Origin: Syntrophaceae bacterium
GTDB lineage: Bacteria > Desulfobacterota > Syntrophia > Syntrophales > Smithellaceae
Assembly: GCA_003139775.1 (NCBI GenBank)
Contig: PLGI01000105.1
Span: forward strand, 1-44,623
Reading direction: 5' to 3'
DNA: 44,623 nt
Shown piece by piece: positions 5,745 to 10,166 of this stretch. The notes beneath the pieces were generated by a model, which saw nothing but the letters and a program-made list of their open reading frames with translations, searched no databases and had not been told where the DNA came from. The position numbers and the translations under genes are program-made. How positions within the stretch are numbered: the first letter of the stretch is position 1; each line of letters begins with the position of its first letter.

Positions 5745-7130
5745 ATGTCAATAAGTTACTACAGCACAAATCGTCATTTGAATAATGTTGAGGGAATCAC
5801 TCCTTTTACCGGCAAGGTCTCGTTTAAAGAAGCCCTGCTCAAAGGCCAGGCTTCGGATGAAGGTCTATTTATGCCGGATACGATACCGCTTCTTTCCTTA
5901 AAAGATATCCAGAAACTGAAAGGCAAGCCTTACCGGGAAGCAGCACTACTTGTGGCTGAAGCGTTTCTTGCCGATGAGTTTCCCCGGGAAGTTCTCAAAA
6001 AAGTAGTTAAAGAAGCTTACAACTATCCCGTTCCTCTGGAAGAAGTAAAACCCAAGGCCTACGTGATGCGCCTGGATCAAGGGCCGACAGCTTCATTTAA
6101 AGATTTTGCCGCGCGCATGATGGCAAGATTGATGAGCCATTGTCGCCCGCGAGGTGAAAGGCTTAATATTCTTGTCGCCACATCAGGTGATACAGGCAGC
6201 GCTGTGGGCGAAGCCTTCAAGGGAGTAGCGGGAATTGACGTTACTATTCTTTATCCGGAAACAGAAGTAAGCCCAAGGCAAAAAAAACAGCTCGACACAA
6301 TCGGCGGCAACGTGCGGGCGCTTTGCGTGCAGGGCAAATTTGATGATTGTCAGAATTTAGTCAAGCAGGCTTTTTCCGATTCTCAACTTACAAAATTTAA
6401 TTTGACCTCGGCTAATTCCATTAACTTTGGCCGGATTCTTCCGCAGATAATTTACTATGTCTACGCTTACGCCCAGCTTGCCGAAAATGGAGAGCAGGCA
6501 ATATTTTCTGTTCCTTCGGGGAATTTCGGCGATGCTCTGGGTTGCGAATACGCTCGCCGCATGGGCTTGCCGATGGACAAACTTGTTATGCCCACTAATG
6601 AAAATGATGAATTTCCGGTCTTTCTGGCCACAGGAAAATACAACAAAGTTTCTCCCTCACGGGCGTGTATTTCCAACGCCATGAACGTCGGGCATCCAAG
6701 CAATTTAGCGCGTTTCTTTGAATTGTATGGAGGGACGGTTGATCGTGTGGGTAAAGTTCATCGCTATCCTAATCTGGAAGAAATGCGGCGGCATATTTTT
6801 TCGGTAAGCATTACGGATGAGCAAACCAGACAAACTATCAAGAGCGTCTATGATCGCTATCACATAGTTTTGGAGCAGCATGGAGCTGTGGGCTGGGCGG
6901 GATTGGAAGCATATTTAAACACAGCACCAGACAAAATATTGGCCATTTGTCTGGAAACCGCCCATCCGGCAAAATTCCCGGAGGAGATTCAAAATCTGTT
7001 GGGATTAACCATGCCCCTGCCGGAGAGCATGAAAGACCTTGACCTCAGAGAAGGCTCTGCCATTTCTATTGCAAATAATTACGATGAATTTAAAAATTAT
7101 TTGCAGAAAAATTTAAAGATTAAAGAATAA
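5745..7130 (+). CDS. thrC: threonine synthase
   Basis: A 461-residue PLP enzyme converting O-phospho-homoserine to threonine, the last step of threonine synthesis. The cofactor lysine is in PTASFKDFAAR (K119). The phosphate-binding loop ATSGDTGSAVGEAF and the VPSGNFGDALG motif follow in the usual order. The N-terminus STNRHLNNVEGITPFTGKVS and the overall length fit the longer, E. coli/yeast-like threonine synthases. Its start follows AAAAGG at a workable distance. It converges with cimA. Threonine feeds isoleucine by the ilvA route while cimA gives a threonine-independent route, so the pair marks two alternative inputs to the same pathway. Confidence 0.93.
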   Translation: MSISYYSTNRHLNNVEGITPFTGKVSFKEALLKGQASDEGLFMPDTIPLLSLKDIQKLKGKPYREAALLVAEAFLADEFPREVLKKVVKEAYNYPVPLEEVKPKAYVMRLDQGPTASFKDFAARMMARLMSHCRPRGERLNILVATSGDTGSAVGEAFKGVAGIDVTILYPETEVSPRQKKQLDTIGGNVRALCVQGKFDDCQNLVKQAFSDSQLTKFNLTSANSINFGRILPQIIYYVYAYAQLAENGEQAIFSVPSGNFGDALGCEYARRMGLPMDKLVMPTNENDEFPVFLATGKYNKVSPSRACISNAMNVGHPSNLARFFELYGGTVDRVGKVHRYPNLEEMRRHIFSVSITDEQTRQTIKSVYDRYHIVLEQHGAVGWAGLEAYLNTAPDKILAICLETAHPAKFPEEIQNLLGLTMPLPESMKDLDLREGSAISIANNYDEFKNYLQKNLKIKE

Positions 7131-7150
7131 CTGTGACCTGAATTTACCCT

Positions 7151-7186
7151 AATAACCTAATACCCTAAAGGGCACATCGAGGTCAC
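7151..7186 (+). repeat. 36-bp repeat, copy 1
   Basis: AATAACCTAATACCCTAAAG continues through GGGCACATCGAGGTCAC. It is identical over 36 bases to the reverse complement at 17823-17858. It lies in the gap between the convergent thrC and cimA genes. Confidence 0.8.
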
Positions 7187-7305
7187 GCGAGGGCACAAGG
7201 CCGCCTGCGAGACTGTGTCATAATAGCAAAGAATGTCATTCCATATCCTACGGCATTTCAGACTGATGCTGCCGGCAAAAATAGCCAAACGAAGGCGGAA
7301 TGGTA

Positions 7306-8889
7306 TTATTTGATATTGAGATTGTCCTTGCTGAGTTTGTATTCAATACTATCAACAAGGGCTTGCCAACTGGCTTCAATAATATTTTCCGAAACACCTA
7401 TAGTACTCCAGATATCTTTGCCATCCGTGGAATCCAAAAGCACCCTGACGCCCGCGGCTGTGCCTTCCGAACCTTCCAGCGTACGCACTTTAAAATCAAC
7501 CAGGCGCATTTCCTTGATTTGCGGATAAAATGTCGTGAGTGCCTTGCGCAGCGCATGATCCAGAGCATTCACCGGACCGTTTCCTTCGGCGGCCGTTAAC
7601 TCTTCCTCACCGGCTACCGATATTTTGATGGTTGCCTGAGAAAGACAGGGGTTATCCTCTGTGCGTGAAGTAACAACGCTGAAGGACTCCAAGTTAAATG
7701 GTTCGATAAATTCACCGATCGTTTTTTTAATTAGCAGTGATAGCGAGGCGTCGGCGGCATCAAACTGAAAGCCTCGGTCCTCCATAAGCTTGACTTCATG
7801 CACTATCTTTTTACTGATAGCGTCATCTTTAGTAATGTCAATGCCCAGTTCTTTGGCTTTGTATTCAACATTGCTTTTACCCGCCAGATCGGAGACAAGA
7901 ACGCGCTGGTGGTTACCGACAAGTTCCGGTTGGATATGCTCATAGGCCATGGAGTTTTTAACCACAGCGCTGACATGCACTCCGCCTTTGTGCGCAAAAG
8001 CGCTGCGTCCTACAAATGGCCGCGAATTAATCGGCGGAACGTTGGCAACATCGCTTATGTAATGAGAAAGGTTGGTGAGCTGACGGATCGATTCCGGCGG
8101 CAGACAATTTTTCCCAAGCTTCAATTGTAAATTGGCAACCAGAGAAATCAAGTCGGCATTACCGCATCTTTCACCGTAACCATTGATCGTTCCTTGAACC
8201 ATCACTACCCCTTCCTGCACGGCGGCGATGGAATTGGCAACGGCAAGCCCGCAGTCATTATGCGCGTGAATCCCGGCACTGTCTAAAGGAATATAAGAAG
8301 AAATTTTTTTCACGATGGAGCTGATTTCATAGGGCAGAGAACCACCGTTAGTATCGCAAAGAACAATCGTATCCGCTCCGGCGGCCAGCGCCGTTTTCAC
8401 AACTTTGGTTGCGTAACGGGGGTTGTTTTTATAGCCGTCGAAAAAATGCTCGGCATCAAAAAGAACTTCCTTGCCCATTGATTTCAGATATTTGATAGAG
8501 TCGGCAATCATGGCGAGGTTTTCGTCCAAGTCAGTTTTAAGAATTTCGATTACATGCAAATCCCATGATTTCCCGACAATAGTGGCGGCAGGAGTGCCGG
8601 CTTTTACTAAAGCCTTTAAATTCGGACATAACTCGGTTTTGGTATGCGGCCGGCGCGTACTGCCGAACGCGGTCAGGCGCGAATTCTTAAATTTAACGGC
8701 TTTGGCCATTTCGAAAAAACGCACATCTTTGGGATTGGAACCTGGCCAGCCCCCTTCGATATAATGAAAGTGAGCCTCATCAAAGCGCTGGGCGATACGC
8801 ATTTTTTCTTCCGCCGAAAAATTGGTTTGTTCCCCCTGCGTGCCATCCCTCAAAGTTGTATCGTACACCAGTATTTTATTTTTTGTCAT
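7306..8889 (-). CDS. cimA: (R)-citramalate synthase
   Basis: A 527-residue member of the DRE-TIM metallolyase family. It condenses pyruvate and acetyl-CoA to citramalate, opening the threonine-independent route to 2-oxobutyrate and isoleucine. The barrel carries YDTTLRDGTQGEQTNFS near the start, the metal-binding HAHNDCGLAVANS and GYGERCGNADL. The last 130 residues form the LeuA-type allosteric domain where isoleucine normally binds. The length, the EGGWPGSNPKD motif and GTQGE in place of the GEQ-type LeuA signature favour CimA over 2-isopropylmalate synthase. GAGGGG precedes the ATG. The leader upstream encodes an Ile-rich peptide and an attenuator (8905-9104), which independently supports an isoleucine role. 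Confidence 0.93.
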   Translation of the reverse strand: MTKNKILVYDTTLRDGTQGEQTNFSAEEKMRIAQRFDEAHFHYIEGGWPGSNPKDVRFFEMAKAVKFKNSRLTAFGSTRRPHTKTELCPNLKALVKAGTPAATIVGKSWDLHVIEILKTDLDENLAMIADSIKYLKSMGKEVLFDAEHFFDGYKNNPRYATKVVKTALAAGADTIVLCDTNGGSLPYEISSIVKKISSYIPLDSAGIHAHNDCGLAVANSIAAVQEGVVMVQGTINGYGERCGNADLISLVANLQLKLGKNCLPPESIRQLTNLSHYISDVANVPPINSRPFVGRSAFAHKGGVHVSAVVKNSMAYEHIQPELVGNHQRVLVSDLAGKSNVEYKAKELGIDITKDDAISKKIVHEVKLMEDRGFQFDAADASLSLLIKKTIGEFIEPFNLESFSVVTSRTEDNPCLSQATIKISVAGEEELTAAEGNGPVNALDHALRKALTTFYPQIKEMRLVDFKVRTLEGSEGTAAGVRVLLDSTDGKDIWSTIGVSENIIEASWQALVDSIEYKLSKDNLNIK

Positions 8890-8904
8890 TTTCCCCTCAC
8901 TTTC

Positions 8905-8942
8905 AAAAAAAACCGCTGCTGGGTTTCCCTGGCAGCGGTTTT
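8905..8942 (-). terminator. attenuator terminator in the cimA leader
   Basis: On the minus strand AAAACCGCTGC pairs with GCAGCGGTTTT around a short loop that contains GGGAAACCC, and eight T follow (8912-8905). It lies inside the cimA leader, 15 bases before the start codon and 25 bases after the leader-peptide stop. It points into cimA, so it would end transcription before the gene unless disrupted. Confidence 0.9.
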
Positions 8943-8983
8943 AAATTTCGGTTATTTCGAGTTGATACTATTCCGCGACCAAG
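8928..8983 (-). promoter_or_regulatory. candidate antiterminator pairing of the cimA leader
   Basis: CUUGGUCGCGG (8983-8973, the last codons of the leader ORF) can pair with CCGCUGCCAGG (8938-8928, the 5' arm and loop of the terminator) at 10 of 11 positions, counting G-U. The two structures are mutually exclusive. A small hairpin, UCUCC-AUA-GGAGG (8996-8984), lies just before and may act as the pause or protector stem. Confidence 0.7.
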
Positions 8984-9048
8984 CCTCCTATGGAGAAGCT
9001 AATTATAATGTTGCTAATTATTATTTTTCTAATGATGATCGTGTTCAT
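8968..9048 (-). CDS. isoleucine-rich leader peptide of cimA
   Basis: A 26-codon ORF beginning MNTIIIRKIIISNIII, with a further Ile at position 20: ten isoleucines in 26 residues, in three runs of three. Such enrichment is the hallmark of ribosome-mediated attenuation, as in the leader peptides of enterobacterial ilv operons. GGAA lies close ahead of the ATG. A ribosome stalled at codons 14-16 (9009-9001) leaves the antiterminator strand at 8983-8973 free. A ribosome reaching the stop at 8970-8968 covers it and lets the terminator form. The peptide is expected to have no function of its own. Confidence 0.88.
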   Translation of the reverse strand: MNTIIIRKIIISNIIISFSIGGLVAE

Positions 9049-9075
9049 AGTTCCAACTATTGTCTGTTTTTTTAT

Positions 9076-9104
9076 ATACTAATTTTTCCGGCGAATTTTG
9101 TCAA
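9076..9104 (-). promoter_or_regulatory. promoter of the cimA leader
   Basis: Minus strand TTGACA (9104-9099), 17 bases, TAGTAT (9081-9076), with TATATA overlapping. Transcription would begin about 20 bases before the leader-peptide ATG, which is the right distance for an attenuated leader. Confidence 0.75.
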
Positions 9105-9221
9105 TAGAAATAATTTTCATAATCAAATCGCCCTCCAGCAAAGGATATTTTAATAGAGCGGGAAATGTGCTAAACTGACGCATAAATATTTATATCAAGT
9201 CTACTTTAATAAAGAGGAACC

Positions 9222-10166
9222 TTGTCAACTCATCAGCATCAACATCACAATCATGAAGAAGCATCATGGGGCAAACGCTTAGTCGTCTCCATGATCATGA
9301 ACCTGATCATTCCGGCGGTGCAGATTTACGGCGGCATTATCTCCGGCAGTATGGCGCTTATCAGCGACGCTCTGCATAATTTAAGCGACTTCATTTCTCT
9401 GGTCATCAATTATGCCGCACTGGCCATTGGCAGACGCGGCCCGACTGATCAGCAAACATTCGGTTATAAACGAGTAGAAATATTTGCCACTTTAGTCAGC
9501 GTAGGTTTATTATACGGCACCGGTTTTTATATTGCCATAGAGGCTTGGCACAGATTCCGCGCGCCCCAGCCGATTGCCGGGCAATTAGTTATCTGGATTG
9601 CTCTGCTGGGATTTGCCGGCAACATCATCTCCGCTCTGATGCTGCGCGCCGGCTCGAAGGTCAATTTGAATATGAAGAGCGCTTTTTTGCACATGCTCAG
9701 TGACGCCGCGACCTCTTTGGTTGTTGCCATATTGGGAGTTGTATGGATTTTCAAGTCCTGGTTTTGGCTCGATCCGGTATTCTCCTGGTTAATTGTCGGG
9801 ATGATATTATTCAGCGGTTGGGGTTTGCTGAAAGACAGTATTCTTATTTTGATGAATGCCACACCGCCGGGAATTGACTTGCACGATATTCAGAAATCAT
9901 TGGAATCGCTCGAAGGAGTAAAGGAAATTCACGACCTGCATGTTTGGAATCCGTCGGCGGAAAGTATTGCGCTGGCGGTCCATATTACTGTTCCTGATCA
10001 AATGCTCGGTAAAGTTGATGAACTGGCGGAAAGAGTTAGAACTGTTCTTGCCGATAAATTTAAAATTGATCATCCGACATTGCAGTTTGAATCCAACACC
10101 TGTAACAACGGACAGCTTTTATGTTGCATTGCCGATAACGGCCATGGAAAACATGGTCATGATTAG
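9222..10166 (+). CDS. cation diffusion facilitator, Zn-type exporter
   Basis: A 314-residue inner-membrane proton/metal antiporter of the CDF (ZitB/CzcD) family. The His-rich N-terminus (STHQHQHHNHEE) precedes six membrane helices. The two metal-binding HxxxD pairs are in LHNLSDF (helix 2) and LHMLSDA (helix 5), the pattern associated with zinc. The cytoplasmic C-terminal domain has DLHVWNPS and ends with a Cys/His tail (CNNGQLLCC, GHGKHGHD) that may bind metal. Translation starts at a TTG with GAGG 4 bases upstream. It stands alone, divergent from the cimA leader. No metal-regulator gene is adjacent. Confidence 0.9.
   Translation: MSTHQHQHHNHEEASWGKRLVVSMIMNLIIPAVQIYGGIISGSMALISDALHNLSDFISLVINYAALAIGRRGPTDQQTFGYKRVEIFATLVSVGLLYGTGFYIAIEAWHRFRAPQPIAGQLVIWIALLGFAGNIISALMLRAGSKVNLNMKSAFLHMLSDAATSLVVAILGVVWIFKSWFWLDPVFSWLIVGMILFSGWGLLKDSILILMNATPPGIDLHDIQKSLESLEGVKEIHDLHVWNPSAESIALAVHITVPDQMLGKVDELAERVRTVLADKFKIDHPTLQFESNTCNNGQLLCCIADNGHGKHGHD

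Follow-up and report, generated by a model that had tools for sequence, protein, structure and literature searches.

How is the expression of cimA, the gene whose product starts isoleucine synthesis from pyruvate, controlled in an order of mostly uncultured anaerobes that includes syntrophic bacteria? The window (the whole stretch of DNA analysed, 44,623 nucleotides from an assembly of 3.42 Mb) carries cimA on its minus strand, and a sequence-only reading had proposed an isoleucine-sensing attenuator in front of it. Judging from sequence comparison, we put the probability at roughly 90% that a ribosome-mediated transcription attenuator adjusts cimA expression to the amount of charged tRNA-Ile. 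Ribosome-mediated attenuation would then also cover citramalate synthase, the enzyme through which the threonine-independent isoleucine route is entered. The elements of the locus are as follows.

9076 to 9104, minus strand: promoter, with the -35 box TTGACA at 9104-9099, a 17-nt spacer and the -10 box TAGTAT at 9081-9076 (10 of 12 consensus positions); of 102 cimA leaders, 87 have a similar promoter upstream, compared with 543 of 2040 shuffled stretches.
8968 to 9048, minus strand: leader ORF MNTIIIRKIIISNIIISFSIGGLVAE*, 26 codons and TAG, with ten Ile codons.
9001 to 9009, minus strand: third Ile run, codons 14-16 (ATT ATA ATT), the likely control codons beside the first RNA strand.
8982 to 9000, minus strand: probable protector (1:2) hairpin, AGCTTCTCC-ATA-GGAGGCT.
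8973 to 8983, minus strand: antiterminator strand (segment 2), CTTGGTCGCGG, identified by pairing and covariation; in other families this strand carries the ATG or GTG of a mini-ORF.
8928 to 8938, minus strand: segment 3, CCGCTGCCAGG, within the 5' arm of the terminator and pairing with segment 2, identified by pairing and covariation.
8905 to 8942, minus strand: intrinsic terminator, a stem-loop at 8942-8909 followed by a U-run to 8905.
7306 to 8889, minus strand: cimA (start ATG at 8889-8887), encoding citramalate synthase (TIGR00977, 743.4 bits with a cut-off of 450) with domains PF00682 and PF08502, the latter a C-terminal LeuA_dimer domain.

The promoter described by the sequence-only reading, TTGACA-17-TAGTAT, was found as given, and the other elements were found with some refinement. 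The 26-codon leader said to hold ten Ile in runs of three has such runs at codons 4-6, 9-11 and 14-16, the tenth Ile standing alone at codon 20, and it contains only 1 Leu and 1 Val besides. The terminator of 11 bp followed by eight U reaches that length with the A-U pairs at its base included, and some of the U residues at 8912-8905 lie inside the stem. The pairing of 8983-8973 with the terminator 5' arm at 10 of 11 positions consists of 8 Watson-Crick and 2 G-U pairs. This terminator was missed by a simple terminator scan with a loop limit of 8, which the loop within the uninterrupted stem probably exceeds.

We searched 60 genomes with CimA and obtained 55 upstream regions from 54 genomes, the window's own included; six genomes gave none. 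One region (L021) stops at a contig edge with the terminator alone visible and was left out, so that 54 regions from 25 genera were judged. The earlier reading could have been contradicted by orthologous leaders lacking an Ile-rich ORF or a terminator, and we observed both in all 54, the window among them. The ORFs, as called, contained 5 to 14 Ile, with some starts called too far upstream, and the weakest leader (L038) had 5 Ile in 35 residues as called. Since the leader call selects the ORF richest in Ile, it was compared with 2700 shuffles. The best upstream ORF had at least 5 Ile with an II run in all 54 regions compared with 5.4% of the shuffles. Six or more Ile together with III occurred in 49 of 54 regions and in 0.4% of the shuffles. 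The terminator stems had 9-16 uninterrupted pairs across the 55 regions.

A covariance model (R1) built from 51 leader cores, which the genomes used for building match by construction, matched 137 of the 155 genomes of the order and 87 of the 92 of good quality. CimA matched 128 of the 155 genomes at 132 places, and a listed R1 match was located 15-447 nt upstream of 120 of these, at a median of 26.5 nt from the cimA match. The remaining 12 places had no upstream R1 match among the matches listed. Two of them start within 5 nt of the contig end on the upstream side (G011, G098), and five are in genomes whose R1 scores fell below those listed (G034, G095, G122, G127, G138). For the cimA of G064 there was no R1 match among the matches listed, while for G102, G124, G142 and the second copy of G097 the listed matches were elsewhere in the genome. 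We call the order Syntrophales from its labelled members: two loci, L255 and L250, are letter-identical over a 400-nt stretch to a Syntrophus aciditrophicus MAG (L066) and to Syntrophaceae bacterium UBA6112 (L065), respectively, and Syntrophus is a member of the Syntrophales, Thermodesulfobacteriota.

The comparison of related leaders that the sequence-only reading had proposed found the Ile-rich ORFs kept, and compensatory changes in both the terminator and the antiterminator. Across 51 leaders, 98.2% of the terminator cells were paired; 5 of 10 pairs showed two-sided changes, and the covariation score was 0.351 compared with 0.189 in shuffled alignments (reached by none of 500). For the pairing of segments 2 and 3, 87.9% of the cells were paired. 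Two-sided changes occurred at 4 of 11 pairs, a count also reached by 60 of 500 shuffles; they were present in 28 cells compared with 11.7 in shuffles, and the covariation score was 0.267 compared with 0.193, reached by none of 500. Slid versions of this pairing all scored lower (best 0.193). One middle pair was unpaired in 28 of the 51 leaders, and two other pairs in 10 and 12. The antiterminators of the window's genus are likewise imperfect, with 7-9 Watson-Crick and 0-3 G-U pairs of 11. Independently of the alignment columns, the best complementarity to the terminator arm averaged 9.02 over 54 leaders, against 6.77 in shuffled sequences (sd 0.08, highest 7.06 of 200).

The two partners also differ together between groups, with CCTGATAATGG/CCGTTATCAGG in the distant families, the window's own pair given above, and CTGGTGATGG/CCGCCACCAG in L052. 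Segment 2 paired better with the segment 3 of its own group than with that of the other group (9.65 vs 8.11 over 15 leaders, 8.82 vs 8.00 over 30 leaders). At the level of sequence, then, the antiterminator is predicted to compete with the terminator, with compensatory changes present. The protector hairpin at 9000-8982 was seen by eye in the window and its relatives and occurs in the window's minimum-energy fold; the RNAalifold consensus is without it and contains no structure besides the terminator.

Taken as sequence, the tested features make the leader a ribosome-mediated attenuator and support the earlier interpretation, and from them we infer the transcription start, leader translation, stalling and the change in read-through. 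Transcription would begin below 9076, with a ribosome following along the leader ORF. When isoleucine is ample, the ribosome would reach the stop codon (8970-8968) and cover segment 2; the terminator would then form, and transcription would stop short of cimA. When isoleucine is short, the ribosome would stall on an Ile run. A stall at codons 14-16 would cover the 5' side of the protector hairpin and leave segment 2 free to pair with segment 3, and RNA polymerase would continue into cimA.

We examined this geometry in a folding model that takes the RNA as it is just before the terminator 3' arm exists and assumes a ribosome footprint. In the window, the mean pairing probability of segments 2 and 3 rose from 0.006 with no ribosome to 0.995 once a ribosome sat at Ile codon 16, and a ribosome at the first Ile run freed segment 2 about as well (0.98). 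Averages over 132 leaders were 0.49 without a ribosome, 0.77 with one at the first and 0.84 with one at the last Ile/Leu/Val run, and a stalled ribosome raised the pairing in 118 of the 132. With a ribosome at the leader stop the pairing is zero by construction, because the assumed footprint masks segment 2. Thus, of the earlier claim that stalling at codons 14-16 frees segment 2 and a ribosome at the stop covers it, the first part holds in the model and the second holds by assumption, while the model does not single out codons 14-16 for a special role. Once the RNA is complete, the minimum-energy form contains the terminator even with the 5' part covered. Since the first run is nearly as good and the finished terminator is the most stable form, the decision must be kinetic, a matter of timing, and known attenuators do decide kinetically.

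The last Ile codons, ATA ATT (within 9001-9009 in the window), are kept at the nucleotide level, as ATAATY near this place in 90 of the 100 cimA leaders examined. This was observed even where cimA itself has no ATA codon (L053, L047), and in many leaders a CATAGG motif follows. Rare-codon sensing or a pause site is a possible reason for this conservation.

The rival that survives best, though unlikely, is that the leader senses branched-chain amino acids in general (Ile, Leu and Val), like the enterobacterial ilv leaders. Isoleucine is the only product fed by citramalate synthase, whereas the acetolactate synthase step is shared by isoleucine, valine and leucine. The leaders of cimA and ilvB were set side by side. 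The ilvB set came from 47 genomes of the window's family, of which 44 had a match, and 30 loci were examined; the leader criterion, a run of four I, L or V, favours none of the three. In the window's organism, ilvB (G000:C31; L257:644-742) is preceded by a Val/Leu-rich leader, MFLKDLTGGNDLIINSVVVLVVVLTGSAALYL, and terminator-like hairpins, and such a leader with a terminator-like hairpin was present at all 30 loci. The I/L/V counts were 85/182/179 of 979 residues in these 30 ilvB leaders and 329/35/51 of 953 residues in 37 cimA leaders of the family. General sensing is favoured by the cimA attenuators outside the order, which have mixed leaders (L183, L184, L193 and L195 together 18/36/19 of 143 residues), and by L067 and L070, likewise outside it, whose leaders mix Ile, Leu and Val. 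It is contradicted by the nearly pure Ile content in the window and its family and by the location of the Val/Leu signal at ilvB. With an Ile leader at cimA and a separate Val/Leu leader at ilvB, the Ile leader matches the Ile-specific branch. One organism would thus split the branched-chain signal between two attenuator-like leaders, with isoleucine read at the Ile-only branch and valine and leucine at the shared acetolactate step. In other families of the order, the R1-type leaders before ilvB are Ile-rich (18 leaders, 144/19/34 of 509 residues), so this division is clear in the window's family and not general.

We consider it very improbable that a metabolite riboswitch or a T-box runs the terminator, with the Ile ORF being incidental. 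Such elements could account for a nucleotide-level conservation (ATAATT, CATAGG) that exceeds codon needs, and riboswitches also use a terminator with a competing upstream strand. However, the conserved upstream part is a coding frame whose residues vary with the operon (Ile, Val/Leu or mixed), the consensus structure is the terminator alone, and there was no fitting Rfam match. A search of 7000-9600 with E up to 5 gave five sub-threshold matches and no leader family, riboswitch or T-box; the amino-acid leader families of Rfam include the His, Leu, Thr and Trp leaders. A constitutive terminator that insulates or lowers cimA, with an unimportant leader ORF, is the least credible of all, since the promoter found is upstream of the terminator, the segment 2-3 pairing covaries and Ile runs are kept in all judged regions, even though the terminator is a strong one and additional sequence has been inserted ahead of some cimA copies.

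If a ribosome-mediated attenuator operates here, part of the leaders may hold the terminated state by means of a second, very short ORF on the antiterminator strand. For this count we used the 111 well-anchored leaders out of 124 distinct ones, dropping 13 poorly anchored. Removed beforehand were L021, which runs into a contig end, L194, whose orientation is unclear, L166 and L169, in which no anchor was found, two records lacking a leader call and eight same-context repeats. In 59 of the 111, the leader ends in frame, and 93% of these share a single stop position immediately after segment 2. In the remaining 52 the leader ends out of frame, in most cases before segment 2 is complete; 41 of them have ATG (32) or GTG (9) at a fixed place in segment 2 and meet a stop one codon (33), three codons (7) or four codons (1) later. 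In 14 leaders this start shares one base with the leader stop, and in 19 it lies two bases after it. The stops include TAA, TAG and TGA, and the intervening codon varies.

A stop within two codons was found in 33 of 41, compared with a mean of 3.7 and a highest value of 10 in 1000 shuffles, and in 0 of 41 in each other frame. Within five codons it was found in all 41, compared with a shuffle mean of 13.3 (highest 22) and with 2 and 15 in the other frames. The sequences share descent and are not independent events; grouped into 19 sequence clusters, 15 end within two codons and all 19 within five. Using the 41 out-of-frame leaders that have a start, we examined whether the conserved stop is a mere leftover of an in-frame leader, and set this idea aside, given the three different stop codons and the frame-specific excess, though shared history explains part of the signal, as the same place carries the stop of in-frame leaders. 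The T of the start codon makes a G-U pair with segment 3, where pairing alone would favour C. A start codon at that place was also present in 46 of the 59 in-frame leaders.

Among the 11 out-of-frame leaders without a start at the exact place, L052, L235 and L237 carry an ATG displaced by one base as judged by eye, the register of L176 and L214 looks wrong, a shifted or CTG variant is seen in L038 and L230, and L245 and L247-L249 have no mini-ORF start. By eye, a Shine-Dalgarno-like stretch precedes the mini-ORF in some leaders and not in all. Both absences speak against a restart ORF. Leaders with two linked ORFs come from 13 of the order's 21 families (from cimA in 9, from ilvB in the rest), and also from ilvD and leuA elsewhere in the phylum. 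The window has GCG at the start place and thus the one-ORF form, and we rejected the mini-ORF as an explanation of the window itself. In its genus the start was absent from the members looked at, except for a shifted GTG in L010 and L006.

In the two-ORF form, the amino-acid leader would stop just before or at the edge of segment 2, and the mini-ORF (start, one to four codons, stop) would span the end of the strand. We give even odds to the idea, drawn from these sequence patterns, that a ribosome restarts or another binds at the mini-ORF, holds segment 2 and enforces termination, and that leaders in frame through segment 2, like the window's, need no second ORF and can lose the start. The mini-ORF, if real, would offer an explanation of what keeps such switches in the terminated state once the leader ribosome has been released.

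In the enterobacterial ilvGMEDA, ilvBN and leu attenuators, a leader peptide with many residues of the product amino acid is combined with alternative RNA strands and a terminator before the first gene. The cimA system resembles them in its amino-acid-rich leader, alternative strands and terminator. It differs in controlling an Ile-only entry route with a nearly Ile-only leader, in belonging to the Thermodesulfobacteriota and in matching no Rfam leader family. T-box leaders sense tRNA charging and switch a terminator by binding tRNA directly, without translation; like them, the cimA leader is proposed to sense tRNA charging at a terminator, but it has no T-box match. The ilvBNC leader of Corynebacterium glutamicum encodes a peptide with branched-chain codons and forms anti-antiterminator, antiterminator and terminator hairpins (PMC11857589). 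It differs in its mixed Ile/Val/Leu codons, its acetohydroxy acid synthase operon and its phylum (PMC11857589). A comparative study of Actinobacteria predicted Ile/Val/Leu leaders with terminators, among them candidate ilvB leaders, together with trp and leuS attenuators; in the parts consulted it names no cimA, and it calls the mode of ilvB regulation unclear (PMC1262725). Another article mentions cimA, in the parts consulted, only as a gene deletion (PMC13158618). Among the openly licensed articles listed, where older comparative attenuation work may be missed, none was seen to deal with a cimA attenuator or with a start-stop mini-ORF in such a leader. The features that seem new are the controlled gene, the bacterial group, the signal divided between two leaders and a possible mini-ORF variant; the type of switch itself is well known.

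In an even sample of the phylum, R1 matched 73 of 395 genomes, 16 of these being from the order, and many of the weak matches were reverse-strand matches to the palindromic terminator. Among 80 named cimA loci (L064-L143), 14 of which were also read by eye, an attenuator of this kind was present in six (L064, L065, L066, L067, L070, L084). In the other 74, a script saw none in up to 300 nt upstream, so beyond the order the arrangement is apparently missing from most named cimA loci. Ile-run ORFs were also flagged in L095, L121 and L141, but we discounted them by eye; by script, L141 has no terminator. Several cimA copies outside the order follow the end of a coding frame that, from a motif, we take to resemble aspartate kinase. 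Elsewhere in the phylum, this attenuator type was found before cimA (with mixed leaders), ilvD, leuA and ilvB; model matches confirmed the genes of L183, L187, L188 and L199, and those of the other phylum loci were judged by their first residues.

Two loci, L197 and L185, have attenuators of this type, with Ile runs in the leader, before an acyl-CoA dehydrogenase gene, which is unexpected under an Ile leader. The best NCBIfam model for this gene is acryloyl-CoA reductase, below its cut-off, and in L197 the two genes that follow are presumably etfB and etfA.

Within the order, G090:C269:2919-6418 holds two cimA copies with leaders in head-on inverted arrangement and with equal scores, either a palindromic duplication or an assembly artefact. 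At G097:C101:41817-43370 an additional cimA, divergent at 54% identity, has no leader match among those listed; it lies beside a first copy that does have one. Inserts of very roughly 70-240 nt lie between the terminator and cimA in L004, L005, L006, L009, L011, L014, L015, L019, L020, L025 and L050. They resemble a dispersed palindromic repeat, CCAATTTCAG...CTGAAATTGG, followed in several by AATCCCGCAAAGCGGTGGTTTTGAA. L009 and L055 have similar repeat-like stretches between the -10 box and the leader, as does L257 ahead of ilvB.
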